Source: an uncultured Paracoccaceae bacterium
GTDB lineage: Bacteria; Pseudomonadota; Alphaproteobacteria; Rhodobacterales; Rhodobacteraceae
Direction: 5' to 3'
Length of the DNA: 64,000 nucleotides
Assembly: GCA_943787785.1 (NCBI GenBank)
Contig: CALSNT010000020.1
Location: forward strand, 69,501 to 133,500
The first letter of the stretch is position 1; each line of letters starts with the position of its first letter. This document shows positions 9,566-47,007 of the stretch, piece by piece. The notes beneath the pieces were generated by a model that had not been told where the DNA came from, did not search any database, and saw only the letters and a list, made by a program, of their open reading frames with translations. Position numbers and translations under genes: made by a program.

Positions 9566-10753
9566 TCACGTATACAGGCAGTCACGAAGCCGGGTCAGGC
9601 CGTGCTGCAGTTCTTCTTTTGGGGCGACCATGGCCACCCGGATATATCCGTCACCCGGCGTCCCGCCACCGGGGGTTGTTTCACGCGCAAGATAAGCGCC
9701 CGGCAGAACCCGGACGCCAGTTTCCCGCCAGAGTTTCGTGGTCGCTGCCTCTCCGTCGTCGACGGGAAGCCAAAGGAAGAATCCGCCTTCGGGAGCGGCA
9801 CAGCCGTCGACCCCCGCGAACACCGCATCAGCGACGTCGTATTTCGCCTGATAAAGTTTGCGACTGGCCTCGACATGGTCCTCGTCGCCCCACAGGCGTT
9901 CTGACACCCGTTGGATCGGCAATGGCACCGGAGCGCCGGAATAGGCCCGCAAACGGCGAATGTGGCGCATCGATTCTGGGCCAGCGGCCACGAATCCTGA
10001 CCGCAGCCCAGCCAGATTGGAGCGTTTCGACAACGAGTGGATGATGATCGCGCGTTCTGGATCGGCGCCGACGTCCTCGGCAACTTGCATCAGCCCGACC
10101 GGAGGGTCGTGTCTGTAGATCTCAGAGTAGCATTCATCCGCGATGATGCGGAAATCGTGGTGTTCGGCCAGGGTAAGTAGCTGCGCCCAATAGTCCCGCG
10201 TCGCCACGGCGCCCTGCGGATTGCCCGGGGAGCAGACGAAGGCAACCTCGGTCCGATCCAGTACGTCCGAGGGCAGGGCAGCGTAGTCGGGCAGGAAGCC
10301 TGAATCTTCAGTTGCCGAAACATAAACCGGTTCGGCCCCGATGGTCAGAGCGCCAACGGCATAAACTTGGTAGAACGGGTTCGGCACCAGCACCGCCGGG
10401 CGGTCACCATTACGCGCCGTTTCCGGGCAAAGCGCCAGAACCGTGTTGAACAACCCCTCACGAGAACCGTTGAGCGCCATGATGCGATCCACCGGCACCT
10501 GCACGCCGTAGCGGCGCGACAGCCACGAAGAAATCGCTGCCAGTAGTTCGGGCGCGCCGTCATTGGGCGGATAAAGTCGGAATTCCTGCGCTGTGGCTGC
10601 GATTCCTTCAGCCACCCAATCGGGGAACGGATGGGCAGGCTGACCGATGGACAAATGCAAAACTTCGCCGCCCGGTTCATGGGCGTCGAGAAGGCTCCGC
10701 AAGCGCGGAAACGCATAATCTGGCAGGTTCGAAAACCGCTCAGGAAAAACCAT
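9566..10753 (-). CDS. Class I/II PLP aminotransferase (DapC-like)
   Basis: A 395-residue fold-type I aminotransferase. The PLP lysine is Lys243 in [13 protein letters not shown], preceded by the [10 protein letters not shown] loop and the ADECYSEIY strand that holds the cofactor ring. The C-terminal GGFFLWLP and GYIRVAMV strands complete the fold. Its closest remembered relatives are annotated as N-succinyldiaminopimelate aminotransferase (DapC, lysine and cell-wall synthesis), but aspartate or aromatic substrates cannot be excluded from sequence alone. Placement just upstream of ftsK links it to a cell-envelope and division context, which mildly favours a diaminopimelate role. Confidence 0.85.
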
Positions 10754-10858
10754 ATCTGCCTCAGTCCGGGATCATTAGCGCCCCGTGTAAGGCTTAGAAT
10801 AGACTAGGAAATGCCCGTTGGTCCAGTCTGCACTTCAGGCAGTCGTGCGATGTTGCAT

Positions 10859-12187
10859 TTAGGCAAGTTCTGCCTCGATCGCTGCGCCAATCCGCAAAAG
10901 GCGCGCTTCGGCCATGGGCGCGCCCAATAGCATGAGACCGGTCGATGGCACACTCAGTGGTAGTGTCAGGGCGCACAACCCCAACAAATTGCCGATTCTG
11001 GTATTGCGAAGGGCCATCAGATTTGAGTGCACGAAATAGTCGTTTTCAGTATTCAGCCGCTCCACATTCGGCGGCATGATCGGCGCGGTCGGCAAAATTA
11101 CCGCATCATAGCCCGCTGTGGCCGCCAGATACCCGGCCCGGTGGCGCTCGATCGTACGCCACGCAGCGACGTAATCCGGGGCCGAAACATCAGCGCCACC
11201 CCGAAATCGCTCGCGAACCTGGTAGAACATTGCATCCGGGTTCGCTTCAATCTCGTCTTTCCAAAGGCCGTAAGCCTCGGAGGCAAAGACCAGGCCGGAA
11301 GTTTTCAGAACGTCGTCCACATCTGGCAACGCCCCGGAGGAAACGATAGCACCCGCGGCACTCAATCGGCCAACGGCCGCCTCAAATGCCTGTAAGACGG
11401 GGCCTTCAGCATCAACCAGCGGCGCGCCTTCAAGCGCCAAAAGACGCAGACCCGACAGCGGCGCGCCGGCCAGGTCGGCGGGCTTGGTGCCCTCCATTGC
11501 TGCCACCAACAGCCCCGCATCCTCGACTGACCGGCACAGTGGCCCGACGGTATCGAATCGTGGACACAGCGGCACGACACCCTTCAGAGACAAACGCCCC
11601 GAGGTTGTCTTCAGCCCTACCAGATCATTCCAGACCGACGGAATGCGCACCGATCCGCCTGTGTCCGAGCCGATCCCCGCCGCCGCAAGCCCGAAAGCCA
11701 CGGAGGTCGCCGCGCCTGACGATGACCCACCCGGCGCAGCCTCGGCATCATTCACACATGGCGGCGTTTTGGTCATCGGATTCAACCCAAGCCCGGAAAA
11801 CGCCAGTTCGGTCATATGGGTCTTGCCCAGGCAGACCAGCCCGGCCGCGCTGGCGTTGGCCAACACCCGTGCATCCCGATCCGGCACCCGGCCGGCCAGC
11901 AGTTTCGAGCCAGCCTCGGTAACAGTTCCGGCGGAATCGAACAGGTCCTTCCAGCTGACCGGCACCCCGTCCAGAGGTGAGCGCCGCAACCCTGATACGG
12001 CCCGATCCCTTGCCGCCCGCGCCTCGGCCCGCGCCCGATCCGCCGTCGAGCGGGCGTAGATCCGGGGCGTCAATTCATGGGCGTCGATGGCATTCAGATA
12101 GGCTTCAGTCAAGTCAACCGGGTCAATTGCTCCCGCCGCGATCCCGCGCCCCAATTCTGCCGCCGTCATCTTCAGCCAGTCGCCCAT
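10859..12187 (-). CDS. Amidase (amidase signature family)
   Basis: A 442-residue amidase-signature hydrolase. The Ser-cisSer-Lys triad is visible: Lys80 in VSWKDLF, the cis-serine within GGSSSGAA (residues 153-160), and the nucleophile Ser179 in GSDTGGSVRIP. These enzymes hydrolyse carboxamides or act as amidotransferases. It is not GatA: no gatB or gatC is nearby, and the sequence resembles the stand-alone amidases common in Rhodobacterales. The physiological amide is unknown. It is divergent from the UbiH-type gene with an 83-bp gap, too short to hold much regulation. Confidence 0.88.
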   Translation of the reverse strand: MGDWLKMTAAELGRGIAAGAIDPVDLTEAYLNAIDAHELTPRIYARSTADRARAEARAARDRAVSGLRRSPLDGVPVSWKDLFDSAGTVTEAGSKLLAGRVPDRDARVLANASAAGLVCLGKTHMTELAFSGLGLNPMTKTPPCVNDAEAAPGGSSSGAATSVAFGLAAAGIGSDTGGSVRIPSVWNDLVGLKTTSGRLSLKGVVPLCPRFDTVGPLCRSVEDAGLLVAAMEGTKPADLAGAPLSGLRLLALEGAPLVDAEGPVLQAFEAAVGRLSAAGAIVSSGALPDVDDVLKTSGLVFASEAYGLWKDEIEANPDAMFYQVRERFRGGADVSAPDYVAAWRTIERHRAGYLAATAGYDAVILPTAPIMPPNVERLNTENDYFVHSNLMALRNTRIGNLLGLCALTLPLSVPSTGLMLLGAPMAEARLLRIGAAIEAELA

Positions 12188-12270
12188 GTCTCACCCCTCT
12201 TTTCACCGCCCGACGCTAGCGTCACGGGAACACATGGACAATCCCACAGCACCTCGGATAGGTCGCTGGC

Positions 12271-13497
12271 ATGGCGCATGATGCAGATGTTCTGATCGTC
12301 GGCGGCGGGCTTGTCGGGGCCACGCTGGCGCTGGCGCTGGATCGGGCGCGGCTTTCCTCGGTGCTGATCGACGCGCGTCCGGCTGACACACAAAACGCCC
12401 CCGGTTTCGATGGTCGCAGCTATGCTTTGGCGCTTTCTTCGGTACGGATGCTGAAGGCCACAGGACTTTGGCCCGCGCTGGCCGCCGAGGCGCAACCGAT
12501 GCTTGAGATCAAGGTCAGCGATGGTCGCGCTGGCACCGGTCCCTCGCCCTTCGTGGCCGAGTTTCACCACGGCGAAATCGAGGAAGGCCCGATGGGCCAC
12601 ATGATCGAGGATCGCCATCTTCGCCGTGTTTTGCAGAAGGCACTGGACGGGGCGCGACGCGTTACGCGGCTGTCGGGTCAGACGCTGGAGAAGCAGGTGC
12701 CCGGCACGGCCGAAATTGAACTGACGCTGTCCGGCGGTCAAACGCTGAGCGCTCCGGTCGTCGTTGCCTGCGACGGCAGAATATCCGGGACCGCCGAACG
12801 CGCGGGCATCCGCCATCTGCGCACTGACTACGGCCAGACTGCACTTGTCTGCGCCATAGCACACGATCTCCCCCACAACGGCATCGCGCACCAATTCTTC
12901 ATGCCCGAAGGTCCGTTGGCCGTGTTGCCGCTGGCTGGCAATCGAAGTTCCATCGTCTGGACCGAAGCGACCGATCGTGCCGCCGCAATTCAGGCGCTGG
13001 GTGATGACGACTATCTGCAAGTGCTGCGACCAAGGTTCGGCGATTTTCTCGGCCCTATCACCCTCGCCGGGGCGCGCTGGACTTATCCGCTTGGCCTGTC
13101 ACTGGCCGAGCGTTTGGTGGCCGACCGCATTGCGCTGGCGGGGGACGCCGCCCATGCCGTGCACCCCATTGCCGGGCAGGGCCTGAACGCCGGGCTGCGC
13201 GATGTGGCCGCTTTGGCCGAAGTTCTGACCCTTGCCAAACGGCGCGGTGAGGATATCGGACAGACCGACGTGCTCAACCGTTACGAACGCTGGCGACGCG
13301 CTGACGTGACCACGCTGGCGCTTGCGACAGATGCATTCAACCGACTGTTTTCAAACGACGATCCGGTCTTGCGGGGCCTCCGAAATCTTGGCCTTGGCGC
13401 GGTAAACGCGCTGCCGGAAGTGCGCCGGAGCTTCATTCGTGAAGCTGCGGGTTTGAGTGGCGATCTACCGCGCCTGTCGATGGGTCAGGCGATCTGA
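12271..13497 (+). CDS. UbiH/UbiF/COQ6-family FAD-dependent hydroxylase
   Basis: A 408-residue flavoprotein monooxygenase of the ubiquinone-ring hydroxylase family. The dinucleotide fold starts at residue 8 (VLIVGGGLVGATLALAL), the DG motif appears in VVACDGRISG near residue 172, and the second FAD motif is GDAAHAVHPIAGQGLNAGL near residue 290. These three blocks in this order define the family. The expected role is O2- and NADPH-dependent hydroxylation of a polyprenyl ring during ubiquinone synthesis at the inner membrane. Which ring position it modifies cannot be told. It ends facing the CRTAC1-like gene, with no hairpin in the 35-bp gap. Confidence 0.9.
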   Translation: MAHDADVLIVGGGLVGATLALALDRARLSSVLIDARPADTQNAPGFDGRSYALALSSVRMLKATGLWPALAAEAQPMLEIKVSDGRAGTGPSPFVAEFHHGEIEEGPMGHMIEDRHLRRVLQKALDGARRVTRLSGQTLEKQVPGTAEIELTLSGGQTLSAPVVVACDGRISGTAERAGIRHLRTDYGQTALVCAIAHDLPHNGIAHQFFMPEGPLAVLPLAGNRSSIVWTEATDRAAAIQALGDDDYLQVLRPRFGDFLGPITLAGARWTYPLGLSLAERLVADRIALAGDAAHAVHPIAGQGLNAGLRDVAALAEVLTLAKRRGEDIGQTDVLNRYERWRRADVTTLALATDAFNRLFSNDDPVLRGLRNLGLGAVNALPEVRRSFIREAAGLSGDLPRLSMGQAI

Positions 13498-13532
13498 GAG
13501 CCAGACTCGATCACCCGGATGACACCCTGAGC

Positions 13533-15084
13533 TCAATGACGTGTGAGGATCAGCCCGCCTCCATCACGCAGCAACTTCCAGCGGTTGTTCACGCCAATCT
13601 CGACCCAGTCGCTCACCGCGCCATCGGGCCAGATCACTCGAACGTCGGCATCTTCGGCCTCGCCCAATCCAAAATGTTCCGGCACAGCACTCCCCCCGGC
13701 GTGACCACCGCCGATAGTGATCTCGCGTGTTTGCGTTGACCCGTCGGTGCGCACCTCAATCCACGACCCGACCGCGCGCCTGTTCGGTGCGGTTTGGCCG
13801 AGTTCGAGACTGATCCAATTGCCGGTTTGCGATGCCACATTCTGCCAAATCTCAATAGGTGCACGGCGGTTCACCACAGCCAGATCGAGCAGACCGTCAA
13901 GGTTCAGGTCAGCCAAAACCGCGCCCCGACTGCGATCCAATGTCGCGATGCCAGCATTGAGGCCCGCTTCGGAGAAGCTGCCATCTGTCTGCTGAATCAG
14001 TAGATTGTTGGGGTCATCCATCGCCGCGTCGGGCATTTGCTCGACGTTGCCTTTGGCGATGAAAATATCATCCAGCCCGTCGTTCTGTACGTCCCCAAAA
14101 GCCACATGCCAGCCGGTTGAGGGCCGCCCATCGCCACCAGTAAACGGGCGGTGCGCGGTCGTGCCGCGATCGTAGGGCGCATCCTGATAGGTCGGCCCGG
14201 TCGTCCCCGGAAGGCGCGATTGCAACCGCTGATCGCCCATCGAAGACAGTAACACTTCGGGCACGCCATCGCCGTCCAGATCGCGGCTGGCAATGCCCAT
14301 GCCCCAAAGGTGATGGTCGCGCCAACCGTCGGCCTCTGTGAACAGGCGCGGCGTCGCCTCCATCGCCCACATCTGCTCGGCCCCCGCCAGAGACGTAGTA
14401 GTGCCTGTCGTTCGAGACCCGCAGATCGGCGCGTCCGCTGCGGTTCCAATCGGTGAACAGCATCGACAGTGTGCAAAAACCGGGGCTGAGCGTCTGCGGC
14501 GACCCATAGCCATCGCCCTCAGGGCGGAATAGCTGATGGTCATCGCAGGCCTCGAAGGGACCGTCCGGATCGTCCCGATCAACGTAATTTCCAAATGCCA
14601 GGGTTGGCAGGGATTGATCCGCCTCCCAAGTTGCGGAGAACGCCGTAGTCCAGCCATTGCCTGAGGCAACTTCGATGCCGGTAAATGCCTCAAATCGGCA
14701 GGCGTCGAGGCCACGCAGCAGGCGGTTTTCACCAACGCGCAGGATGGCGAGGTCAAGCTGCCCGTCGCCGTCGATGTCCAGCGGATAGGCCCCAATGACA
14801 CCGGTCAGCGCAAGTTCTGGCGGTGTCTCGGTGGTGAAGTCGAGCGTGGCACCGGGACCCTCGGTCGTATTGTGCAGCAGGCTCGCTGGGTTTTCACCCC
14901 CGGCGGCATAAACCTCCGGCAGATCATCTCCATTGCAATCAAATGCAGCAACTCCACCACCTACGAAATGCTCCCAGCCGCCGGTGTACTGGTGCGACAG
15001 CTCGGCGTTGCGGCGTTCGAATCGCGGCTCGGCCACGGCGCTGCCTGCGGCCAGGATCAGTGCGATGGCCAACTCAGGCCGCAT
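13533..15084 (-). CDS. CRTAC1-like secreted protein with FG-GAP/VCBS repeats and ASPIC/UnbV domain (frameshifted)
   Basis: About 517 residues once one frameshift is repaired. The N-terminus (MRPELAIALILAAGSAVAE) is a signal peptide. Calcium-loop repeats follow, such as FDCNGDDLPEVY, LDIDGDGQLDLA, RDLDGDGVPEVL and ADLNLDGLLDLA. The C-terminal ASPIC/UnbV-type block carries NWISLELG, GSWIEVRTDG, GGGHAGGSAVPEHFGLG and VRVIWPDG. The frame breaks at a C run at 14381-14385. Removing one base joins NDRHYYVSGG directly to AEQMWAMEATPRLF, which is the expected order. The start overlaps the last 11 bases of the ROK gene, so the two share a transcript. Such proteins are thought to be secreted, calcium-binding beta-propellers; the ligand is unknown. 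Confidence 0.8.
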
Positions 15085-16270
15085 TGTTTGCCAGGTTTTC
15101 CAGCGCGATCTTGGCGACGCCTTCAATCGCAAAAGCCGCCGCACCTTTCGCCCACATCTGGTCGCCCCATTTGTGGATCTGGATATCGGGCGGCGGTAGG
15201 TCGATCTGAACAATGGACTCGCGAATGCTCTCGATCACCTCATCAGCGTAAAGGTAATCATATTGCATCCGCTCACCCGACAGGATGATTAACTGGGGGT
15301 CGAAAATATTGACAAGATTGGCCAACCCCATGGCAAAAATCCGACCCGCGCGACGAAAAATCGACTGGGCGATGGCGTCGCCGTTTTTGGCCGCCTCGAA
15401 CAGGGCATCTAGGCTGCGCGCATCGCCAGAACCGGAGAGGTCGGTAGCCACCGCAGCCTCGCGCAGTAGCGCGTAGTCGGCGACATAGGCCTCCAGACAT
15501 CCCCGTTGGCCGCACCGGCAAAGCGCCCCGTCAAGCTCCACCTTGATGTGCCCGAATTCGGCGCCGCAACCGCGCGTACCGCGATAGAGTTCATCCCCCA
15601 GAACAATGCCCATTCCGACGCCATTCTCGATGGTGGCGACGATGAAATCGCTGACCCCGCGCCCCAGACCGAAGTATTTCTCGGCCATGGCAACAAGGTT
15701 GGCGTCGTTGTCCACGAAGACCGGAAGCGACAACGCCTGCGACAACAACTCCCCCAGCGGCGCATTACGTTCTTGCAGGGAAGGCGACCAATAGACGAAC
15801 CCGCGCGTCGCATCGACGATGCCGGAAATACCGAGGCCGAGGCCAGCCAACCCTTCGACGCCGCACCCAGCCTCATCCGCACCGGCGCGGACGGCGCGGG
15901 CGATTTCGGCGACCATGTCGGCGATCGAGGCCTGAGCCTGCTCAAGAGGTACGCTGAACTCGGCCAATTCCTCGCCCGCAAAGTCGAGGATGACCATGCT
16001 GATGGCCTGATTAGTCAGCTTCAGCCCGGCCACCCGCCGCGCCGCACCGCGCACTGCCAGATCCACACGTGGACGCCCGCGACCCGCACTTGGGCGGTCG
16101 GTGGCGGTCTCTTCGACAAGGCCTTCCGCAATCAATTCTGCAGTCAGGGCGGTGACGGTCGGTGGGCTAATGTCGGTCTGACGCGCCAGGTCGACACGGG
16201 CAATGCGGCCAGCTTTGCGGATTGCCGCCAGGATGGTACTCCGCCCCGAATGTCGCTGGTCCTGAGCCAT
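15074..16270 (-). CDS. ROK-family transcriptional repressor (XylR type)
   Basis: A 398-residue ROK repressor. Residues 8-55 form a winged helix-turn-helix (STILAAIRKAGRIARVDLAR, then SPPTVTALTAELIAEGL). The rest is a sugar-kinase-like ROK domain with the zinc motif around His251, Cys261, Cys263 and Cys268 (CRCGQRGCLEAY). Such proteins bind DNA without sugar and let go on binding xylose or another monosaccharide. The divergent neighbour is the xylose-type ABC transporter, and a perfect 23-bp palindrome lies in between, so this protein is the obvious candidate to bind it. The gene overlaps the CRTAC1-like gene downstream by 11 bases, which puts that secreted protein under the same control. Confidence 0.88.
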   Translation of the reverse strand: MAQDQRHSGRSTILAAIRKAGRIARVDLARQTDISPPTVTALTAELIAEGLVEETATDRPSAGRGRPRVDLAVRGAARRVAGLKLTNQAISMVILDFAGEELAEFSVPLEQAQASIADMVAEIARAVRAGADEAGCGVEGLAGLGLGISGIVDATRGFVYWSPSLQERNAPLGELLSQALSLPVFVDNDANLVAMAEKYFGLGRGVSDFIVATIENGVGMGIVLGDELYRGTRGCGAEFGHIKVELDGALCRCGQRGCLEAYVADYALLREAAVATDLSGSGDARSLDALFEAAKNGDAIAQSIFRRAGRIFAMGLANLVNIFDPQLIILSGERMQYDYLYADEVIESIRESIVQIDLPPPDIQIHKWGDQMWAKGAAAFAIEGVAKIALENLANNAA

Positions 16271-34667: not shown

Positions 34668-35678
34668 TCACCCAATTAACGAACGCACCTTTGCCAACGT
34701 TGTTGCATTCACCGCAACGCCCCGCGTCGCTGCCATCGCGCGTTTTCCACCACGCCCATCCCCCGGCAGCCGCGCGCCAGGTTGAGCGTGGATCGCACCC
34801 ACCAGCTCGGCGATGTTGGCAGCAAAGCCGCCGCCCGAGGTCGCGCCCGGATCGATCGCAAGGAAGAACTGTCCGGTTTTTGGTGGCCCGCCTTTGGTTC
34901 CCGAAAACGGGCTGGCATTCATGCCGAGCGTCGCCCCGGTCATCGCAGCAGCCATCACCTCGACCAGCAACGCGATGCCGACACCCTTGTAACCCCCGGA
35001 CGGCGCCATCGATCCTGTCAGCGCAACAGCCGGATCGGTCGTCGGTTTCCCGTCCTGGTCCAGCCCCCAACCCTCGGGGATCGGTTGCCCCTCGCGGTTA
35101 TGCTTCATGATCTCGGACTTGGCGATGACACTGGCGCTTTGGTCGATCAGCACAGCCACCCCGCCTTGCCCATCCGGCACGGCCAGCGAGAACGGATTGG
35201 TACCGACCACCGGCTTTTGTCCGCCCGACGGCGCAATCGACGCAGGTGCATTGGTAAACCCGATCCCCAGCAAACCGGCCTGTGCCAGACGATGCGTGTG
35301 ATAACCTAAAACGCCACAGTTATAGGAATTCCTGATCGCCAGCGCAGCGACGCCTTGTTCGCGGGCCAGCGGAATCAGCGCCTCGAATCCTGCATCAATC
35401 GCTGAATGCGCGAAACCGGTGGCTGCGTCGACAGCGATCACGCTGGGTGCCGGCCGCGTCAACACCGGAACCGCCTGCCCGTCGACTTTGCCGCACTGAA
35501 CGTGCTCGGCGTAAATCGGGATATAAGCGAGGCCGTGGGATGCGACGCCGTCCGCCTCTGTCGCCGCAGTTGCGGCCGCCAGAGGGCGAGCGTTCGCCTC
35601 AGTCGTTCCAGCAGCCATCAGTGCGCGCACGGACAGGTCTTCGATTTCGGTAAGGCTAAGCGTTTCAGTGTCTGGCAT
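34668..35678 (-). CDS. Malate/L-lactate dehydrogenase (Ldh2) family oxidoreductase
   Basis: A 336-residue NAD(P)H-dependent oxidoreductase of the Ldh2 family, which includes malate, sulfolactate and ureidoglycolate dehydrogenases and the cyclic-imine (piperideine or pyrroline carboxylate) reductases. Recognisable blocks are ADGVASHGLAYIPIYAEHV with the conserved catalytic-region His, GFAHSAIDAG, AIRNSYNCGVLGYHTH, VVGTNPFSLAVPD, and GYKGVGIALLVEVMAAAMTG. It is the last gene of a five-gene operon and begins 14 bases after the DUF3726 gene. The context with an aldehyde dehydrogenase and an amidohydrolase-fold protein suggests catabolism of a nitrogen-containing compound, but the substrate cannot be read from sequence. 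Confidence 0.85.
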   Translation of the reverse strand: MPDTETLSLTEIEDLSVRALMAAGTTEANARPLAAATAATEADGVASHGLAYIPIYAEHVQCGKVDGQAVPVLTRPAPSVIAVDAATGFAHSAIDAGFEALIPLAREQGVAALAIRNSYNCGVLGYHTHRLAQAGLLGIGFTNAPASIAPSGGQKPVVGTNPFSLAVPDGQGGVAVLIDQSASVIAKSEIMKHNREGQPIPEGWGLDQDGKPTTDPAVALTGSMAPSGGYKGVGIALLVEVMAAAMTGATLGMNASPFSGTKGGPPKTGQFFLAIDPGATSGGGFAANIAELVGAIHAQPGARLPGDGRGGKRAMAATRGVAVNATTLAKVRSLIG

Positions 35679-35692
35679 GTCGGTCTCCGGTG

Positions 35693-36280
35693 TTAGTCAT
35701 TGTCGCTCAGACCCGCACCAGCACCCGCAAGGCGGGATGCCTCGGTGGCGGGGGCATAGGTTCGGTTGGCGTAGGTTGATAGGCTGTCCCAGATGGCCTG
35801 CGGAACCTGCGCACGGCTGGTCGGCGTCGACGGCAAGCCAGATCCAACTTTGATGCTGACCGCGTCTGTGCGTGTACTGGTCAGATCGCAAGGCTCTGCG
35901 ATTGCGCCACCCGGCCAAACCTCTGCAACCGCTGGAAACACCAGAAGGGGACACAGCGTTGGTCCAAGCCTAAGCGGGGAAGCGGTCAACACCTCGGCCC
36001 GATCCAGCATCGCAGCCCCGGTCGTGACCGGGCACAGCCAGCCACCCCTAGCCGTCCACTCGCCGCCGCCAATGACAGGCGCAAATTCAGACAGCGTCTT
36101 GCCGTCCAGCTGATCCAGCAAGTCGGCAAGCGCTTTTGTTCCCGGCAAATCGCGCGCGGCCAGCCAGCACGTCGCACGCGCGGCTTCGTCTGCCATACCC
36201 CAGTCAAAACCCGCACCACGCGCCGCCTTGGTGGCCATCGCCGTCAGCTCGGAAATTGAAACGTCGATGAGTCCAGTCAT
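35693..36280 (-). CDS. DUF3726 family protein
   Basis: A 195-residue soluble protein I place in DUF3726 by its overall pattern (ISELTAMATKAARGAGFDWGMADEAARATCWLAARDLPG near the start, then LCPLLVFPAVAEV) and by its place next to an Ldh2-family gene, a pairing I remember from Rhodobacteraceae. No catalytic motif, signal peptide or membrane span is visible. Its ATG overlaps the stop of the upstream 559-codon gene (ATGA at 36277-36280), so it is translationally coupled. It may be a subunit or accessory factor for one of the operon's enzymes. Confidence 0.7.
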   Translation of the reverse strand: MTGLIDVSISELTAMATKAARGAGFDWGMADEAARATCWLAARDLPGTKALADLLDQLDGKTLSEFAPVIGGGEWTARGGWLCPVTTGAAMLDRAEVLTASPLRLGPTLCPLLVFPAVAEVWPGGAIAEPCDLTSTRTDAVSIKVGSGLPSTPTSRAQVPQAIWDSLSTYANRTYAPATEASRLAGAGAGLSDND

Positions 36281-37956
36281 AACGGCGGATAAGCCCAGTC
36301 GTCGGCATCCGTCCCGGCCACTTCGCCCGGATAGGGCGCGTTCTGGAACATGTTGATCCGCACCCAGCGGTCTGATCGAGGGTCAAAATGCCCGGCACCG
36401 AAAAAGCTCAGTTTGCAGCGCAGCATGTCGATGGGCAGGACTGTCGCGCTAATCGTGTTGTCGCGGATTTCTCCAAAAGGCGCAGTCTGGGCGATCTGAA
36501 TACGGCGGACCATATGGCGGTGCTCGGGCATGGCCAGCAACAGGTCGGCGATCAGGGCATCGTCTGCCCATCCGGCAAGCGCGGCACGCAAAGCTGCAGC
36601 ATCACGCCCCGGAGAGAGTGGTTGTTCGTACCGCTCAATCGGCTCTTCGAATCGCTCTCCCAAACGCGGCTCCAGTTTTTCCGCGCTGACATACCAGACA
36701 CGGGCCTGTTCGTCGCGAGCGGCCCAATCGGTCTCCAACGCCCAGCCATAGGTGGTTTCCAGCGCGGCGCGGGTTGCCCCGACCGTTGCGGATCCGTCAA
36801 TTCGAGCTGGCGGGCTGCGCAGACTCATGGTGTCGGCGAGGTCATCAACCACGGCACCGTGCGGTTCCAGCATCAGCGAGACGAGTTGTTCCTGACCCTC
36901 GCAGGTCAAATTGGCCTCGCCCCAAGTATACAGGTCATCCCACGGGGTCGGACCGGAAAGCGGCGTAACGGCCAGATGCTCGGCTAGTTTGTCGAGGTCG
37001 GGGCGCAGATCAGCAAGTTTGGCTTGTTGCAATGGATGATCCGAGTGCCAATCGGCGGCGTTGACCCGCGCGCGCGCGACCAAATCCACGAATTCGCGCG
37101 AACTGGACTCATCGCCAGGCAACGCGCGAACCCGTGCCAGCGCTGTTTCCCTCGCTGCGATCCAGTTATTCAAAAGCGCGGGGTGGTTGACCAGATATGG
37201 CGCCATGCCGAGGCCAGTGGAGTTGCCGATGCCCAGACGGCGGGCCAATGGGGCTGCGAGGTGTACTGCCCCGGACCCGCCTTTGACACGCGCCAGATGC
37301 TCAGCAAGACGCAGCACGAAATCGCGGATCAGGAAGACGGTCAGCATCTCGGCCTGAAAGGGGGCTGCAAATTCGGGCCGGTCGCAAATCGCGCGGTAGT
37401 CCGAAGCGCCAAACTTGCCGGACCCGTAAACCGCAGTCGTCCGCATCAGATAGCCGACCCGGATGATCATATCCTCGTCAGGCTGCCGCCCATCGGCCAA
37501 ACGGTCGACCACGTGATCGAACATCCGAACCGAGCGGTTGGTGCGTGACAGGGTCAATTCCTTTTCACTGACCCGTCCAGCCTCCTGCAAGGGAACATTG
37601 GCCTTCAGCCGGGCGATATCCGCCGTGGTCGGCACCCCGTCAAACAGCGCATAGGTGCAATCCCACGCTTCGGCGATGACCCGGTCGGAACGCTTTTCAG
37701 CAGGCAGATCGTGGGCGAAGGCCACAAGCGAATAGGTTCGGGTTGGCGTCGTCGCACTCAGCACCGCGTGACCAACACCGTGGGCATCGATATCAAAAAC
37801 CGGGCAATCAAACTTCCAGCCCTCAGCCTTCATCCGGCGCATCAGAATGCGCATGAAGGACAGTCGGCTGGCATGGAAGGAGCCCATGCGTGCCAGTCGC
37901 ATCACCTGTTCCGGTGGGCGCAGGGCAACGTGCGCAGGGGCGGCTTCGGCCCTCAT
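36277..37956 (-). CDS. Unrecognised 559-residue protein in a coupled catabolic-type operon
   Basis: I do not recognise this family. It is a soluble, charged protein without signal peptide or obvious membrane span. Candidate conserved features are an N-terminal RMGSFHASRLSFMRILMRRM, a CPVFDIDAHGVGHAVLS strand pair, SLVAFAHDLP, SDRVIAEAWDCTYALFDG, RVGYLMRTTAVYGSGKFG with YRAICDRPEF, and a C-terminal RRIQIAQTAPFGEIRDNTISATVLP. The ATG at 37956 overlaps the stop of the dipeptidase-like gene (ATGA), and its own stop overlaps the DUF3726 start (ATGA). This strict coupling implies it is an enzyme or subunit made in fixed ratio with them. An upstream in-frame start at 37992 is less likely because it lies inside the previous gene. 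Confidence 0.75.
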   Translation of the reverse strand: MRAEAAPAHVALRPPEQVMRLARMGSFHASRLSFMRILMRRMKAEGWKFDCPVFDIDAHGVGHAVLSATTPTRTYSLVAFAHDLPAEKRSDRVIAEAWDCTYALFDGVPTTADIARLKANVPLQEAGRVSEKELTLSRTNRSVRMFDHVVDRLADGRQPDEDMIIRVGYLMRTTAVYGSGKFGASDYRAICDRPEFAAPFQAEMLTVFLIRDFVLRLAEHLARVKGGSGAVHLAAPLARRLGIGNSTGLGMAPYLVNHPALLNNWIAARETALARVRALPGDESSSREFVDLVARARVNAADWHSDHPLQQAKLADLRPDLDKLAEHLAVTPLSGPTPWDDLYTWGEANLTCEGQEQLVSLMLEPHGAVVDDLADTMSLRSPPARIDGSATVGATRAALETTYGWALETDWAARDEQARVWYVSAEKLEPRLGERFEEPIERYEQPLSPGRDAAALRAALAGWADDALIADLLLAMPEHRHMVRRIQIAQTAPFGEIRDNTISATVLPIDMLRCKLSFFGAGHFDPRSDRWVRINMFQNAPYPGEVAGTDADDWAYPPL

Positions 37957-38930
37957 GCCGGCCCGAAACTGGTGTCGAAGAAGCGCAACCAATTGTCGCC
38001 CATGATACCAGCCACGTCCTCCGCCGATAGGCCGGTCGCACGGAGCCCATCTTCGATATTCCCGAAATCACGATTGTCGCGGTACCACGCCGGCATCGGC
38101 GGAAAGCCAGCGTCACTGGCCGACCCCTCGCCATAATCAATCGCCTTGGTCCAGCGCCCGACGCGCATCCATTCTACCACCGAGTCCGGCTGATCCTGGC
38201 ACAGGTCACTGCCGACGCCGAGGTTTTCTGGCCCGGCGAGGTCCGCCGTCTTCGCAATCATGTCGCAGAAATCCTTCAAGGTGCAGTCGGATTTTCCTTT
38301 CAAATGATGGGGATAGAGCGAGAATCCCAGCATCCCGCCAGACTGCCCCAGCGCGCGGATCACATCGTCGGACTTATTTCGCAGTGCCGGATGCCAGAAC
38401 GCCGGGTTGGCGTGGGTGATGGCGATGGGGCGGGTGGAATGTTCGATGGCTTCCAAGGTCGAGCGATCCGCCGAATGGCTCATATCCACGACCATCCCAA
38501 CCCGATTCATTTCGGCCACCACCTGCTTGCCCATTCGGGTCAAGCCGGGATCTTCCGCCTCGTAGCAGCCTGTCGCCAGCAGCGACTGGTTGTTATAGCT
38601 GAGCTGCATGAACCGCGCGCCCAGTGTGTGATTGATCTCGACCAGACCGATGTCATCCTCGATCGGGCTAGGGTTTTGATACCCAAAGAAAATCGCCGTC
38701 CGCCCGGTCTCCTTGGCTCGCCGTACGTCCTCGCCGGTACGGCCATGAAAGATCAGCTCGGGGAAGCGTTCAAACCAGCGGTTCCATTGTTCGATATTGA
38801 GGACGGTCTCTCGGAACACCTCGTGATAAGCAATGGTGACATGCACCGCATCGAGGCCGCCATCGCGCATCTGGCGGAATATCTTCTCCGACCAATTGGC
38901 GTATTGCAGACCGTCGATGCGAAAGCTCAT
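37953..38930 (-). CDS. M19 dipeptidase-like protein with altered metal site
   Basis: A 325-residue member of the M19 (membrane dipeptidase) amidohydrolase fold, without signal peptide. His152 (DMSHSADR), His173 (ITHANPAFWHP) and Asp242 (GVGSDLCQD) match the second metal site and catalytic base. The first metal site is gone: the usual DGHxD is DGLQY at residues 6-10, and the bridging glutamate of the EGG motif is replaced in FFGYQNP (Gln85). It belongs to a subfamily with the N-terminal pattern GGLDAVHVTIAYHE and the YNNQSLLATGCYEAEDPGLT segment. Ordinary dipeptide cleavage is therefore doubtful; a cyclic or amide-type substrate is more plausible. It is coupled by ATGA overlaps to the genes on both sides. 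Confidence 0.85.
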   Translation of the reverse strand: MSFRIDGLQYANWSEKIFRQMRDGGLDAVHVTIAYHEVFRETVLNIEQWNRWFERFPELIFHGRTGEDVRRAKETGRTAIFFGYQNPSPIEDDIGLVEINHTLGARFMQLSYNNQSLLATGCYEAEDPGLTRMGKQVVAEMNRVGMVVDMSHSADRSTLEAIEHSTRPIAITHANPAFWHPALRNKSDDVIRALGQSGGMLGFSLYPHHLKGKSDCTLKDFCDMIAKTADLAGPENLGVGSDLCQDQPDSVVEWMRVGRWTKAIDYGEGSASDAGFPPMPAWYRDNRDFGNIEDGLRATGLSAEDVAGIMGDNWLRFFDTSFGPA

Positions 38931-40375
38931 TTCGGCGTTCCCGCTGCGATGTAGGCAGTTTTAACCGTCGTGTAGAATTCGGCAGCATACCCGCCCTGTT
39001 CGCGCGGGCCATAGGAACTGTCGCCGCGTCCGCCGAAGGGCACGTGATAGTCGGTGCCAGCGGTCGGCAGGTTGACCATGACGCAGCCGGTGCGCGCGTT
39101 CCGGCGGAAGTGCGTTGCGCGGGCGAGGTCGCGGGTGACGATTCCCGATGTCAGGCCGAAGTTGGTGTCGTTGACGACGGCGAGGGCTTCGTCATAGTCG
39201 CCCACTTTGATGACGCTGGTGACCGGGGCGAATAGCTCTTCGCGGTTGATTTGCATGGCGTTTGTTGTGTCAGCGAAGACTGCGGGGGACATGTAATAAC
39301 CCTCGGTCGGGCGTGCCAGACGCTCGCCGCCGCACAGCAGGGTTGCCCCTTCGGATGTGCCCAACGCGACATTGTCGAGGTTCGCCTGAAGCTGTCCCTC
39401 GCTGACAACCGGGCCGATCTGGGTCCCTTCTTCAAGCGCATGACCGACCTTCATCGCCTTGGCACCTGCAACCAGTTTATCGGTAAATTCATCATGCACA
39501 TCGGCATGAACCACCAACCGCGACGAGGCGGTGCATTTCTGCCCCGACCCTCCAAACGCGCCACCGAGCGCCAAGGTCACGGCCAGATCGATGTCGCCGT
39601 CTTCCATCACCGCCAAGGCATTTTTCGAGCCCATCTCCATCTGCAACTTGGTCAGATTGCCGATGGCCGAGGCAGCGATTCCCTTGCCCACGGGAACCGA
39701 GCCGGTGAAGGAAATTGCGTCGATGCCGGGGCTTTCAACCAGCGCCTGACCAATGCTGCCGCCCGACCCCATGACAAGGTTGAACAACCCCGCCGGGATG
39801 TCCTGTTTCGTAATAATCTTTGTCAGCTCGACCGCCGATGCGGGCGTAAGGTTCGCTGGTTTCCAGACCACAGCATTTCCAAAAGCCAGCGCCGGGGCGA
39901 TCTTCCACGCCGCCGTGGCGGTGGGGAAGTTCCACGGAGAGATCACCGCGACCACGCCCACCGGTTCGCGATCAACCAAAACCTCGATCCCCGGACGGGT
40001 CGAGGTCACCCGGTCACCGATCTGACGCAGGCATTCAGCGGCATAGTAGGTGAAAAATTGTCCGGCTCGGTAGACCTCCCCAACACCTTCGGCGCGCGGT
40101 TTTCCTTCTTCGCGGGACAAAAGTTCGCCCAGCTCGGCCGATCGCCCCATCAATTCTGTGCCGATTGCCATCAGCACGTCGTAGCGTTTTTCAATGCCGG
40201 TTGCGGCCCAGGCCTGTTGCGCCGGTCGCGCACCAGCGACTGCCGCATCCAGTTGGGTCGAGTTAGCTTGCGCGAAAAGCCCAATAATATCAGAGGTATC
40301 AGACGGATTTCGGTTCTCGATTTCCGAGGCGCCACTCTGCCATTCTCCGGCGATAAAGTTCTGTTCAACAGGCAT
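38927..40375 (-). CDS. NAD(P)-dependent aldehyde dehydrogenase
   Basis: A 482-residue aldehyde dehydrogenase, first gene of the five-gene operon. The nucleophile cysteine is in GGSGQKCTASSRLVV, the general base glutamate in LQMEMGSKN, and the cofactor-binding region includes VISPWNFPTATAAWKIAPALAFGN and FTGSVPVGKGI. The sequence resembles alpha-ketoglutarate semialdehyde dehydrogenases, which finish pentose, sugar-acid and hydroxyproline catabolism, but other semialdehydes are possible. The ATG at 40375 has GGAG eight bases upstream; a GTG three codons earlier is a weaker start. The 229-bp gap to the divergent BA14K-like gene should hold the operon promoter. Confidence 0.88.
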   Translation of the reverse strand: MPVEQNFIAGEWQSGASEIENRNPSDTSDIIGLFAQANSTQLDAAVAGARPAQQAWAATGIEKRYDVLMAIGTELMGRSAELGELLSREEGKPRAEGVGEVYRAGQFFTYYAAECLRQIGDRVTSTRPGIEVLVDREPVGVVAVISPWNFPTATAAWKIAPALAFGNAVVWKPANLTPASAVELTKIITKQDIPAGLFNLVMGSGGSIGQALVESPGIDAISFTGSVPVGKGIAASAIGNLTKLQMEMGSKNALAVMEDGDIDLAVTLALGGAFGGSGQKCTASSRLVVHADVHDEFTDKLVAGAKAMKVGHALEEGTQIGPVVSEGQLQANLDNVALGTSEGATLLCGGERLARPTEGYYMSPAVFADTTNAMQINREELFAPVTSVIKVGDYDEALAVVNDTNFGLTSGIVTRDLARATHFRRNARTGCVMVNLPTAGTDYHVPFGGRGDSSYGPREQGGYAAEFYTTVKTAYIAAGTPK

Positions 40376-41150: not shown

Positions 41151-41954
41151 TTGAAACTGGCTCGGCCAAGGTGGCTTCGTGACCGCCTTGGCCGTTTCCG
41201 GCAGCACGACAGGTGGAATCACCGTTGGGCGACGCAACGCGACTCTGACCGAAGGTTTCGCGTAGACCTTAACTTTGGTCGGGGACGGAGACGACCATGG
41301 GGACGTTCACATCCGGCTTAAACAGCGATTGCAGTGCAAGTTTGTCGATCTTGCCCGTCGCAAGTTTCGGCAAGCTTTCCAGACACTTAACGACATGCAC
41401 CGGGAAGTCGAAATCTGTTTCTATAAGATGCCAGTTTGCAGCATCAAACCCGATCGGGCGTGATGCAACAATCGCCGCACATATTCTGGGAAATCCATCG
41501 TCTGCTTCGACGCCGACGACGGCAACCGCAGTGACCCCATCCATCGAAAGCAATGCCTGTTCCAGAAATCCAGGGTGAAGTTTATTGCCGCCGTAGTTAA
41601 TGACGACGGAACTGCGGCCCAGGATCGTCAGATAACCATCTTCAGATACGCGCCCGATGTCACCTGTAGGAAACCAGCCATCGACGAGTGAGCTTCCATC
41701 GCCGACATCCTTACCGATATATCGCCCGGCGATTTCAGGCGAAACGCGGGCTCGGATCATTCCCTTTTGTCCATCGGCGAGGCGGTTGTCCCCGTCATCG
41801 AAAGCCGCAACCTCCACAGTCTCAATCACTTTGCCGACGCACCGATCTTCCTTGATGTTGTCAGAGGAGGATTTCCAGGCGATTCGGGCGACTTCTGTCG
41901 CTCCATAGGATGTTATGATCTCGTCTATCAGGTAGTCTTTTGCATCTTTGATTA

Positions 41955-43010
41955 GAGCGTGTCTCTGCCTTTCAGATTCAGGATTCCCAGATTGGCTGCT
42001 ATGTGATTCCCTGCCCTTGAGGCAGATATGGGGGTTACAGATGGGCAAGCCACATCCAATAGAGCTGCGAACGCGTGTTGTCGCGTTTGTCGATGAGGGC
42101 CATGGTCATCGCGAGGCGGCGCGACATTTCCGGGTGTCACCGAAATTCGTGAACGACCTGATTAAACTGCGGCGTAAAACGGGATCACTTTTGCCGCGGC
42201 CTCAGGGCAATGGCGGCGGACATGGAAAGCTGGCCGGAGTGACCGGTTGGATCGACGCGCGCGTCACCGCCAAGGGCGAGATCACGCTGGATGAGTTGGT
42301 AGCTGAGCTGGCCGAGACCCACGGTATCGACGTTCATCGTGGCACTGTCTGGCGGGTTCTGCGTGGCCTCGGATTGACGCATAAAAAAAGACCTGCAGGC
42401 GCTGAACAGAAGCGCAAGGATGTTGCTGACCTGCGCCGCATCTGGATAATGAGACGCCAGCCCTTCATGGCCAACCATCTGGAAAGGCTGGCCTTCATCG
42501 ACGAAACCTCGGTCAAGATCAACATGGCCAAGACGACCGGCTGGGCACCGCGCGGGCAGCGTTTGGTCGACCATGCGCCGTTCGGGCACTGGCGCACCCA
42601 AACTTTTATCGGTGCCCTGCGTCATGACCGGCTGGATGCACCCTGGGTAATCGACGGGGCAATGAACGGCGAAATGTTTGATCGCTATGTCGAGACTCAA
42701 CTGGCCCCGACATTACGTGCAGGCGATGTCGTCATCCTCGACAACCTGTCCAGCCACAAAAACCCCAGTGCGGCCCGAACCCTGCGCGAGATCGGCGCAT
42801 GGTTCCTTTTTTTGCCGCCCTACAGTCCCGATCTGAACCCAATTGAAATGGCGTTCTCGAAACTTAAGGCACTCATCAGAAAGGCTGCGGCCCGAACATA
42901 CGAAGACCTCTGGCAAGCGGTCGGCCGGGTTTGCGATCTGTTCTCAGACGAGGAATGCTACAACTTCTTCAGAGCAGCAGGATATGAGGCCAATTAACTG
43001 CAACCCGCTC
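41955..43010 (+). mobile_element. IS630-family insertion sequence, apparently complete
   Basis: A 1,056-bp element bounded by TA dinucleotides at 41953-41954 and 43011-43012, the target duplication typical of IS630/Tc1-mariner elements. Its ends start GAGCGTGTCT on the left and, read inward from the right, GAGCGGGTTG, so the inverted repeats are short and imperfect. The single transposase gene lies inside. The insertion splits a ligase pseudogene, whose frame is restored when the element and one TA are removed. This fixes the ends to the base. Confidence 0.88.
42041..42997 (+). CDS. IS630-family transposase
   Basis: A 318-residue transposase with an N-terminal paired helix-turn-helix (residues 5-60 and 75-120) and a DDE catalytic core. 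The triad is Asp154 (AFIDETSVK), Asp234 (VILDNLSSHK) and Glu269 (PDLNPIEMAFSKLK). The spacing of 34 residues between the last two gives the DD34E signature of IS630. The ATG at 42041 begins MGKPHPIELRTRVVAFVDEG, the usual family N-terminus. An in-frame ATG at 41948 lies outside the element and is rejected. It is uninterrupted, so the element may still be able to move. Confidence 0.93.
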   Translation: MGKPHPIELRTRVVAFVDEGHGHREAARHFRVSPKFVNDLIKLRRKTGSLLPRPQGNGGGHGKLAGVTGWIDARVTAKGEITLDELVAELAETHGIDVHRGTVWRVLRGLGLTHKKRPAGAEQKRKDVADLRRIWIMRRQPFMANHLERLAFIDETSVKINMAKTTGWAPRGQRLVDHAPFGHWRTQTFIGALRHDRLDAPWVIDGAMNGEMFDRYVETQLAPTLRAGDVVILDNLSSHKNPSAARTLREIGAWFLFLPPYSPDLNPIEMAFSKLKALIRKAAARTYEDLWQAVGRVCDLFSDEECYNFFRAAGYEAN

Positions 43011-43520
43011 TAAGGGGCGGGGGCAAAATGCCCCGGTTACACGGGCCACCGGGAAGCGCGTTCTTATCGGACGTGATTTCAGGTCCTCGATGACCTCAGC
43101 CAAGAGGGCCGGTGCTACCAGAAGATATGTCGGGCAGTATCGCTGGATGGATGCCAGCAAGGCTGATGATGAATTTGCGGGTGCGTTGATCAATACGCCG
43201 CGGGCGGCCAGGGCAACCATACAATCAACGAACACCGGCAAACTGCCGCGTCCCGCTGTCAGCAGGAATCTCTTCTGTGTCGGGAAATAGGCGTCCTGAC
43301 TTTTGGTTCCTATCTGGTGCAAAATTGCGCGGGCGCTGAATTCGATCAACTTCGGACGACCAGTTGAGCCCGAAGAGGAAAAGATCGCCGAGAAATCCTG
43401 TGCGATGGTCAGCCCAAGCGATGATATCGGCTTTTTGGGTCGGAACCAGTCCTGGGAGACTGTCATGGTCGGAAGGCCATCTGAACCGCACCGGGTTTGC
43501 CGGAGGCTGATTTGTCTTAG

Positions 43521-44043: not shown

Positions 44044-45380
44044 GAGTTATGCCCGAAAGTTGGTGATGGTCTGAAGTAGGCGGCATATCATGGCGGTGTT
44101 GAAGACGCCGTCAGTCTCAAAGAGAAAGGATATGCCACCATGGCTAAAACGACTGTTGTCCCGTTCGAACTGCCATCGGAATTTTCGCCGGATCCTCTGA
44201 CCGAGGTGATCCAGGTTGGGGCGAAGGAGCTGCTGCGCACGGCGGTCCAAGCTGAGGTTTCAGCGTTTATCGCCGAGCACGCGCACCTGCTGGACGATGA
44301 AGGCCGCCAGCGTCTGGTGCGGCACGGCTTTCTGTCCGAGCGCGAGATGATGACGGGAATCGGGACGGTCCCAGTGCAAGTGCCGCGCGTCCGTGATCGT
44401 GGGTCCAATGCGGATGGCGGCAAGATCAAGTTCCGCTCATCGCTGGTTCCGCCCTATCTGCGCAAAGCGAAGTCCGTCGAGGAGCTGTTGCCCTGGCTGT
44501 ACCTGAAAGGCATCTCGACGGGGGACTTCAGTGAGGCGCTGGCGGCGCTTCTCGGACCGGATGCCGAGGGGCTGTCGTCTTCGACCATCACGCGCCTGAA
44601 GGCGGCGTGGTGGGACGAATACGAGATCTGGCGCAAGCGTGATCTCACGGGCAAGCGCTACGTCTACGTCTGGGCGGATGGGGTTTACTTCACGCCGCGC
44701 CTGGACGGCGATCGTCAATGTATGTTGGTTATTATTGGTGCCGACGAATACGGCGAGAAGGACGTTCTGGCGATCGCCGACGGGTTCCGGGAGAACGCGG
44801 ACAGTTGGCGCGACCTGCTGAAGGGGCTGAAGAAGCGTGGCCTGACCGTGCCGCCGGAACTGGCCACCGGCGATGGTGCGCTCGGGTTTTGGACGGCGCT
44901 GCGCGATGTCTTTCCCGACACCCGGGAACAGCGCTGTTGGGTCCCCAAGACAGCGAACGTTCTGGGCGCCATGCCCATATCCTTGCACGAAAAGGCCAAG
45001 GCGGCCTTCGATCTCTTTGTCGAAACCTACGGCGTGAAATACGAGAAGGCCGTCGCCAAGCTGGTCAAGGACCGTGACGAACTGCTCGCCTTCTATGACT
45101 TCCCGGCCGAGCACTGGAAACACATCAGAACCACAAACCCAATCGAAAGCGTCTTTGCCACGGTCAGAAACCGCACCCGGAAAACCAAGAGCTGCCTGAA
45201 CCGCAAGACCGCGCTCGCCATGGTGTTCAGGTTGATGATGTCAGCGAAGAAGAAGTGGCGGAAGATCTCCGGGCCAAACCGTCTGCCCGAGGTCATTCAG
45301 CGACTTGAGTTCAAAGACGGGATCAAGCAAATTCAAACCGCCGCCTGATGACGGCCGTCACCAACTTTTGAGTATAGCTC
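44044..45380 (+). mobile_element. IS256-family insertion sequence, complete
   Basis: A 1,337-bp element with 26-bp imperfect terminal inverted repeats at 44044-44069 and 45355-45380. Both read inward as GAG(T/C)TAT(G/A)C(C/T)C and then (G/A)AAAGTTGGTGA(T/C)GG, with 21 of 26 positions matching. It is flanked by identical 8-bp target copies, so it arrived by transposition and its surroundings have not rearranged since. The transposase gene is intact. It lies in the gap between the IS3 remnant and the intact ligase gene and breaks no recognisable gene. Confidence 0.92.
44140..45348 (+). CDS. IS256-family transposase
   Basis: A 402-residue mutator-type transposase. The first catalytic aspartate is in YVYVWADGVYFTPRL, the second in ELATGDGALGFWTAL, and the conserved CWVPKTANVLGAMP block replaces the CxxH-type motif of the family. 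The late glutamate is in HIRTTNPIESVFATVRNRT. The gene has no internal stop and its length is that of active members. It starts 96 bases inside the left end and stops 32 bases from the right end. Confidence 0.93.
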   Translation: MAKTTVVPFELPSEFSPDPLTEVIQVGAKELLRTAVQAEVSAFIAEHAHLLDDEGRQRLVRHGFLSEREMMTGIGTVPVQVPRVRDRGSNADGGKIKFRSSLVPPYLRKAKSVEELLPWLYLKGISTGDFSEALAALLGPDAEGLSSSTITRLKAAWWDEYEIWRKRDLTGKRYVYVWADGVYFTPRLDGDRQCMLVIIGADEYGEKDVLAIADGFRENADSWRDLLKGLKKRGLTVPPELATGDGALGFWTALRDVFPDTREQRCWVPKTANVLGAMPISLHEKAKAAFDLFVETYGVKYEKAVAKLVKDRDELLAFYDFPAEHWKHIRTTNPIESVFATVRNRTRKTKSCLNRKTALAMVFRLMMSAKKKWRKISGPNRLPEVIQRLEFKDGIKQIQTAA

Positions 45381-45477: not shown

Positions 45478-47007
45478 TCAGGCATGCTTGGTTAGCGTCA
45501 CAAACAAAGGGACGTCCGCTTTCGGTCGAAATTGCTCTTGCAATGCGATCCTATCCACTTTTCCGGACGCCAATAATGGCAATTTTTCCAACTGTGTCAC
45601 TAGATGTACGGGGAACTCAAATTCTTTGGCAACGAGGTGCCAATTTGCAGATTCAAAATCCACAGCAACCGAACTCACCATTGCTGCGCAGATACGTTGA
45701 AATCCGTCTGGGGCTTCAACGCCAACAACGGCTACGGCTGAAACTCCTTTCATCGACAGCAAAGCTTCTTCCAAGAAGCTGGGATGCATTTTGTTGCCGC
45801 CAAAGTTAATAACAGCACTTGAGCGCCCAAATATTTCGAGGCTGCCGTCCTCCAGAATTGTGCCAGTGTCTCCGGTTGAAAACCAACCGTTGCTCAGGGG
45901 CGCAACAGTGACAGCTGTACTGCCCACATATTTTCCGGCCACAATCGGATCAACTTTTGCACGAATGGAACCAATCTCCCCTCGCTGAAGCTTGTTGCCA
46001 TCCTCATCAAATGCCGCAATTTCTACGCCTTGGACCGGATTTCCAACGCTACGGGGATTCGCTTCGGGACCCGACGCGGTCTTCCAAGCCATCCGGCCAA
46101 CTTCAGCCGCCCCGTAAGAGGTGACGACCACATCACACAACAGCCTAAGTGCATCCGCTTTGACCTTTGGCGGGCAGTAGGCGCCAGTTGCGCGAACGCA
46201 GTTCACGCGCGTATTGATAGGATTGAGTTCTAACAATTCAACCATTTCGGCCAGCATTGCCGGAGCTGCCAGAAAATAGTTCGGGCTATATTTCTGGATG
46301 GCGGTGAGCATTCCCTGTGCACTATGAACAGTCGCTCGTATCAGCAGGCCACCACTTTGTAGTGAGATCAGCGTATCAACAAAGCTAGAAAGCATCGCCG
46401 CATTGGTGGACAGTAGCAAGCGCTTGCTCTCTGAAAAGTACAAATGCTCACCCTTTGTTTTTACACGGTGAAAAACTGCATCGGCGCTGAATTCAATCAG
46501 CTTCGGCCGACCTGTCGAGCCGGATGACGGAAATATTACTGAGAAGTTTTGGGCAATCGAAAGTCCGCTGGTAGACACAGGCTTCTTTGGGGTGAACCAT
46601 TCCTGCTTGATCATTGTGGTTCGGAAAGCTGATTTTAGGTTTGGCTGATCCGTCAGAACCAGATCAAGATCAACGCCAAGCTCTTCATAGTTCGCCAAGT
46701 CTCGGCTATATGCGACGCGACAGCCGTTCATCATTAGCGCCAACGCCATGACAAGATTAACGTCTGGGTTCTTTGAGGCGACGCAGACACAGCGGCGGCC
46801 CTGAATTTTCTTAGCTCTGAAAACTTTCGACAGCGCGACAACGTTTCCTACAACGTCACTTAGCGTGGTGGATCCGCTGTCCGAGCAAATCGCCAAAAGT
46901 GACGAATGCGAATTTGCAAGCGCAATCAACTGCGAAAAAAAAGTCTTGTTGGACAGAAGCGCGCCGCCGGCATGCGGCTGATCTGTTAGGCTGGCTTTTT
47001 TTTTCAT
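45478..47007 (-). CDS. Stand-alone AMP-binding acyl/aryl-acid ligase
   Basis: A 509-residue adenylate-forming enzyme. The P-loop is SSGSTGRPK (residues 161-169). VTSYGAAEVGRMAWK follows, then the GWFSTGDTGTILEDGSLEIFGRS hinge and the catalytic lysine in LLASGKVDRIAL. It would activate a carboxylic acid as the acyl-AMP and pass it to CoA or to a carrier protein. The N-terminal 120 residues are divergent from FadD-type enzymes. No carrier protein, condensing enzyme or transporter is near, so the product is unknown. Codon use is AT-richer than in the flanking operons, which points to acquisition. The truncated paralogue at 41269-43512 shows the locus once held two copies. Confidence 0.85.
   Translation of the reverse strand: MKKKASLTDQPHAGGALLSNKTFFSQLIALANSHSSLLAICSDSGSTTLSDVVGNVVALSKVFRAKKIQGRRCVCVASKNPDVNLVMALALMMNGCRVAYSRDLANYEELGVDLDLVLTDQPNLKSAFRTTMIKQEWFTPKKPVSTSGLSIAQNFSVIFPSSGSTGRPKLIEFSADAVFHRVKTKGEHLYFSESKRLLLSTNAAMLSSFVDTLISLQSGGLLIRATVHSAQGMLTAIQKYSPNYFLAAPAMLAEMVELLELNPINTRVNCVRATGAYCPPKVKADALRLLCDVVVTSYGAAEVGRMAWKTASGPEANPRSVGNPVQGVEIAAFDEDGNKLQRGEIGSIRAKVDPIVAGKYVGSTAVTVAPLSNGWFSTGDTGTILEDGSLEIFGRSSAVINFGGNKMHPSFLEEALLSMKGVSAVAVVGVEAPDGFQRICAAMVSSVAVDFESANWHLVAKEFEFPVHLVTQLEKLPLLASGKVDRIALQEQFRPKADVPLFVTLTKHA

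Follow-up and report, generated by a model that had tools for sequence, protein, structure and literature searches.

A five-gene operon on the minus strand lies within a 64,000-nucleotide window of contig CALSNT010000020.1 (positions 69,501 to 133,500 of the forward strand; assembly GCA_943787785.1) from an uncultured Paracoccaceae bacterium (GTDB family Rhodobacteraceae), and its coordinates are given below as window positions. The genes encode an aldehyde dehydrogenase (ALDH), a protein related to M19 peptidases (M19-like), a 559-amino acid (aa) protein of no recognised family, a DUF3726 protein, and an oxidoreductase of the Ldh2 (type-2 malate/lactate dehydrogenase) family (Table 1). An initial annotation had described this layout as a candidate catabolic operon around an unrecognised protein. 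On re-reading the sequence, the positions it gave for the genes, for the three ATGA overlaps, and for the 14-base gap all proved correct. Overlap coupling alone is common in compact genomes. The arrangement is nevertheless not a product of chance, because the gene order recurs across genera.

Table 1 Genes and junctions of the operon, with positions in the window.
Feature	Position	Strand	Length	Remarks
ALDH gene	38927-40375	minus	482 aa	first gene of the operon; length from ATG; read from sequence
ALDH/M19-like stop-start overlap	38927-38930	minus		ATGA; read directly
M19-like gene	37953-38930	minus	325 aa	read from sequence
M19-like/559-aa overlap	37953-37956	minus		ATGA; read directly
559-aa protein gene	36277-37956	minus	559 aa	read from sequence
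559-aa/DUF3726 overlap	36277-36280	minus		ATGA; read directly
DUF3726 gene	35693-36280	minus	195 aa	read from sequence
Gap, DUF3726 stop to Ldh2 ATG	35679-35692	minus	14 bases	caccggagaccgac; contains a ribosome-site-like GGAG
Ldh2-family oxidoreductase gene	34668-35678	minus	336 aa	read from sequence

Scanning a single genome for each species recovered relatives of the 559-aa protein at 74 loci, and the gene was present in 177/394 genomes of the window's family. Neighbours were counted at the 60 loci where the sequence extended at least 5 kb upstream and at least 3 kb downstream. At these fully flanked loci, the 559-aa gene had DUF3726 beside it in 58/60 and M19 in 55/60; M19, 559-aa, and DUF3726 are the near-constant unit. 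LysR (34/60) and ALDH (34/60) were paired in every layout counted, Ldh2 was found at 30/60 and a BCCT transporter at 20/60, and the complete five-gene set at 13/60. The conserved neighbourhood that the initial annotation proposed to look for thus exists, with a near-invariant core and all five genes together at fewer loci, and its view of a conserved catabolic operon around an unrecognised protein is borne out. Ruegeria TM1040, Aminobacter, and Phaeobacter share the gene order, with overlaps of 1–4 bases in their own annotations. Relatives of the 559-aa protein also occurred in Pseudomonas, Aminobacter, Shinella, and small AT-rich alphaproteobacterial genomes (1.2–1.6 Mb, 30–36% G+C), and none were found in the viral contigs searched. 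Sinorhizobium, Bosea, and Natrinema, an archaeon, had distant relatives (~29–32% identity), and these stood in other neighbourhoods.

The distant loci had layouts of their own. A sister system (29–31% identity) on Sinorhizobium meliloti pSymB (397–399 kb) and in Bosea comprised 559-aa-like, DUF3726-like, and M19-like genes and an ABC transporter with a solute-binding protein. On a plasmid of Natrinema versiforme, the 559-aa-like gene overlapped a DUF3726-like gene near a BCCT transporter, an ALDH, and a dihydrodipicolinate-synthase-family gene. Trigonelline is N-methylnicotinate and was hence considered as a substrate of the pSymB paralogue. We rejected it, since a strain that lacks pSymA and keeps pSymB does not grow on trigonelline, and the pSymB sister system is therefore not sufficient for that growth (PMC4207669).

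The 559-aa protein matched no Pfam family above the cut-off and no NCBIfam family, and at most 5 of 72 homologues matched any one Pfam family, those few at chance-like scores. Its AlphaFold2 model was confident (pLDDT 92.2, pTM 0.92), yet no PDB structure reached E ≤ 0.001 in Foldseek (best E 0.13) and the best VIA-align Z was 3.8; for a long model searched whole, this does not prove a new fold. Invariant residues were rich in Arg and Gly, including a GIGNSTGLGM loop. There was no invariant Cys or His among the homologues, and hence no obvious metal site.

The DUF3726 protein matched its Pfam family at E 9e-21, and our literature search for DUF3726 found no paper. Its AlphaFold2 model (pLDDT 92.2) superposed in VIA-align on 15 Ldh2 entries at Z 9.8–12.7 over 144–172 residues, the best being 3uoe_A (rmsd 3.1, 167 aligned), with the first unrelated entry at Z 4.4; the top 27 Foldseek rows were all Ldh2 family (best E 1.1e-3). 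A profile match to Ldh2 covered the first 56 residues (E 4e-5). From predicted structure and family profile, DUF3726 is a shortened Ldh2 fold, an assignment that is new here; when the DUF3726-like proteins of Natrinema and Sinorhizobium were compared with Ldh2 by single-sequence profiles, they gave no support for it. The delta1-piperideine-2-carboxylate reductase DpkA (1wtj) has this predicted fold in common with DUF3726 (Z 10.9). Ldh2 enzymes have ~335 aa and an SHG motif in the catalytic domain, whereas the 195-aa DUF3726 protein is ~140 residues shorter, keeps the outer fold, and has no SHG motif in its sequence. It is therefore probably a non-catalytic partner. One genome (G449, contig G449:C2, loci L160/L124) encoded a DUF3726-like segment, with weak profile support, fused to the 559-aa C-terminus in a single 869-aa frame, which supports a complex of the two proteins. 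We tentatively suggest, at somewhat less than even odds, that the pair forms a two-subunit enzyme of unsolved fold that opens rings of N-methylpyridinium or similar betaines, with rhizobial and haloarchaeal relatives acting on other substrates.

The M19-like protein matched Peptidase_M19 (PF01244; E 4e-71, 240 bits against a cut-off of 26), and its nearest solved relative was the amidohydrolase 2i5g. Two conserved His of the M19 dipeptidase site were retained (H152, H173). The remaining binuclear zinc ligands of membrane dipeptidases were not found in this protein: DGLQYANW stands in place of the N-terminal HxD, and the bridging Glu of 3id7 aligns with Q85, part of a Q85-N86 pair invariant in 34 homologues. 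The earlier label 'M19-like' is sound as a statement of family, but because of the missing ligands it should not be read as dipeptidase. The ALDH matched Pfam Aldedh (E 6e-152), and its best NCBIfam models were alpha-ketoglutaric semialdehyde/2,5-dioxovalerate dehydrogenases at 476 bits, well below their equivalog cut-offs of 750–770 bits. The Ldh2 protein matched Pfam Ldh_2 over residues 8–331 (E 2e-91, 307 bits), had NCBIfam matches below cut-off, and was closest to the imine reductase DpkA among solved relatives (full length, E 8e-57).

BCCT transporter genes stood between the M19 and 559-aa genes or after the operon in many genomes, including TM1040, and a glycine-betaine-type ABC system was in line with the operon in Aminobacter, Shinella, and the alphaproteobacterial genomes L143, L147, L157, and L159. 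Genes for RidA lay near the operon in 14 loci, and those for DmdA, a betaine dioxygenase-like protein, and heterotetrameric sarcosine-oxidase-like proteins in some genomes. Because such transporters and betaine-related genes adjoin the operon, its substrate is very probably a betaine. In this window, neither a LysR gene nor a betaine-type transporter gene adjoined it. The alphaproteobacterial genome L143 (1.4 Mb) has a compact betaine island at positions 10315–15513, where the genes after the operon encode DmdA, an MFS transporter, a TmpA/gamma-butyrobetaine-type dioxygenase, and an MR/MLE enolase.

A link to N-methylglutamate dehydrogenase (Mgd) was found at several loci. In TM1040, L010, and L014, the operon-adjacent gene annotated 'sarcosine oxidase alpha' differs from ordinary SoxA: in a maximum-likelihood tree it fell in the MgdC clade with 95–99% support. 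That clade was calibrated by subunits 5–10 kb from gmaS in two genomes and by dmm-regulator-mgd synteny; gmaS proximity alone is an imperfect marker, since one of the rows used for calibration, G004 at 16 kb from gmaS, was placed in the other clade. One reference locus had, in a row, genes for a DmmA-type reductase, a protein with a glutamate-synthase domain, and an AraC regulator, and then mgd-type genes; R. pomeroyi SPO1579-1588 is described with this same arrangement, TmaR being at the regulator position (PMC13390433). The AraC regulators next to the operon-adjacent MgdC-clade gene and next to mgd shared 52% identity. MgdC lay within 10 kb of the 559-aa gene in 6/66 testable places, against 0.4 expected. 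Mgd-clade genes, at a cut-off of E ≤ 1e-300 that also admits a 55–58% identical subclade of putative function, were present in 162/177 family genomes with the 559-aa gene versus 125/217 without it, and in genomes lacking gmaS in 87/97 versus 81/166. There the association also held when genomes were stratified by dmdA, with odds ratios of 7.8 and 6.5 in the two strata. In the window's own genome, the Mgd alpha-subunit gene is split over two frames (G000:C16:25140-28074) by a frameshift or assembly error, and the contig of the operon carries a gmaS-type glutamine synthetase III gene (G000:C20:31533-32828) ~72 kb off.

We propose, with a probability of about 0.7, that the operon serves to break down an N-methylated betaine, with homarine as the likeliest candidate, and converts it to N-methylglutamate. 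Homarine is N-methylpicolinate. Its skeleton has six carbons and that of N-methylglutamate five, so one carbon must leave, and the conversion needs ring opening, aldehyde oxidation, loss of one carbon, and a step that turns an imine or enamine into an amino acid. The operon itself, its conservation, the betaine transporters, the Mgd linkage, and the folds come from the data above, whereas we infer the substrate and every single step of the following route. Homarine would enter the cell through a BCCT or ProXWV-type transporter, and its N-methylpyridinium ring may be opened by the 559-aa protein together with DUF3726, a pair to which this step falls by elimination. The resulting semialdehyde would be oxidised by the ALDH, the carbon left on the nitrogen may be removed as formate by the M19-like protein, and the C=N bond or enamine would be reduced to an N-methyl amino acid by the Ldh2 enzyme in the manner of its DpkA-type relatives. 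Mgd would then convert N-methylglutamate to glutamate. The chemistry guessed at in the initial annotation was sensible: ring or amide opening, semialdehyde oxidation, and imine reduction fit these steps, the last through the delta1-piperideine-2-carboxylate reductase that is nearest to the Ldh2 protein.

The pathway is probably already in the literature. Ferrer-Gonzalez and colleagues reportedly described a homABCDER operon that yields N-methylglutamate and occurs in open-ocean oligotrophs and Rhodobacterales, which agrees with our findings. A LysR gene plus these five genes would presumably equal homA-E plus homR; no LysR adjoins the operon in our window. Mgd is reported to act in homarine catabolism (PMC13390433, citing Ferrer-Gonzalez et al. 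2026, Nat Microbiol 11:1531), and mgd adjoins the operon in several genomes. The operon described here and the homarine operon of the 2026 paper are probably one and the same, so that ours is probably not new, and the initial annotation was probably wrong to know of no described pathway.

Several observations weigh against this assignment. There is no recognisable oxygenase among the operon genes, and ring opening with loss of one carbon suggests oxygen. At the fully flanked loci, ALDH was absent nearby in 26/60 and Ldh2 in 30/60, so those steps are either done elsewhere there or not obligatory. The DMSP gene dmdA associated with the 559-aa gene more strongly than Mgd did (odds ratio 11 versus 7.9), and marine lifestyle therefore accounts for part of the Mgd co-occurrence, which this control weakens as proof of the pathway. 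Most Mgd genes were not adjacent to the operon, and the co-occurrence counts come from one family whose genomes are not independent.

Another quaternary or N-methylated betaine (proline, hydroxyproline, or pipecolate betaine, a carnitine-like compound, or a sulfonium) might be degraded to a different product, with Mgd proximity reflecting general methylamine islands. The transporters are betaine-type and not homarine-specific, DmdA and sox genes adjoin the operon in some genomes, L143 adds its dioxygenase and enolase, and MttB-like proteins (judged from sequence starts) and OYE-type flavoenzymes are encoded near some loci. We still consider this unlikely: such neighbours differ between genomes whereas Mgd adjacency recurs, the core has no Rieske demethylase or carnitine dehydrogenase, and simple demethylation needs no imine reductase and semialdehyde dehydrogenase. 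A wholly undescribed pathway, in which the 559-aa/DUF3726/M19 core acts on some other substrate and is distinct from the 2026 homarine pathway, would suit a protein that lacks family and PDB fold matches and has its distant versions on Sinorhizobium pSymB and in Bosea and Natrinema in other settings. It is distinctly improbable given that the Mgd linkage and the published homarine-Mgd report fit one known pathway.

Hydroxyproline or proline-type catabolism, for which the hypY/hypS genes of Sinorhizobium offer a parallel, would make the ALDH an alpha-ketoglutaric semialdehyde dehydrogenase, the Ldh2 protein a pyrroline-2-carboxylate reductase, and M19 a peptidase supplying the amino acid. The best-scoring ALDH models and the DpkA-like Ldh2 protein point that way, but the ALDH score falls far short of the equivalog cut-offs, the M19-like protein lacks the dipeptidase metal ligands, the transporters are betaine-type, and the genes annotated near the operon in Phaeobacter, TM1040, Aminobacter, Pseudomonas MPC6, and Shinella include none for a hydroxyproline epimerase, D-hydroxyproline dehydrogenase, or deaminase. 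With its signature genes absent from these annotated neighbourhoods and the M19 ligands missing, we rejected this pathway as very improbable.

Elsewhere in the window, a minus-strand AMP-binding ligase gene (41269-43466) is interrupted by an IS630-type transposase gene on the plus strand (41948-42997). An intact paralogue of the ligase lies at 45478-47007, with a Mutator-family transposase gene (44140-45348) in between.

Betaines, homarine among them, are abundant solutes in the sea, and what becomes of them there is under active study. The operon as such is probably already known, and the predicted DUF3726 fold, the 559-aa/DUF3726 fusion, the 559-aa model, and the ligand loss of the M19-like protein are new. 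The remaining interest is in the 559-aa/DUF3726 protein pair: DUF3726 gains a predicted fold and a partner, and a 559-aa enzyme without a match among solved structures is suggested for the step that no known operon family explains. The operon is also a usable marker, since the 559-aa gene is present in nearly half of the sampled family genomes and in small AT-rich alphaproteobacterial genomes.

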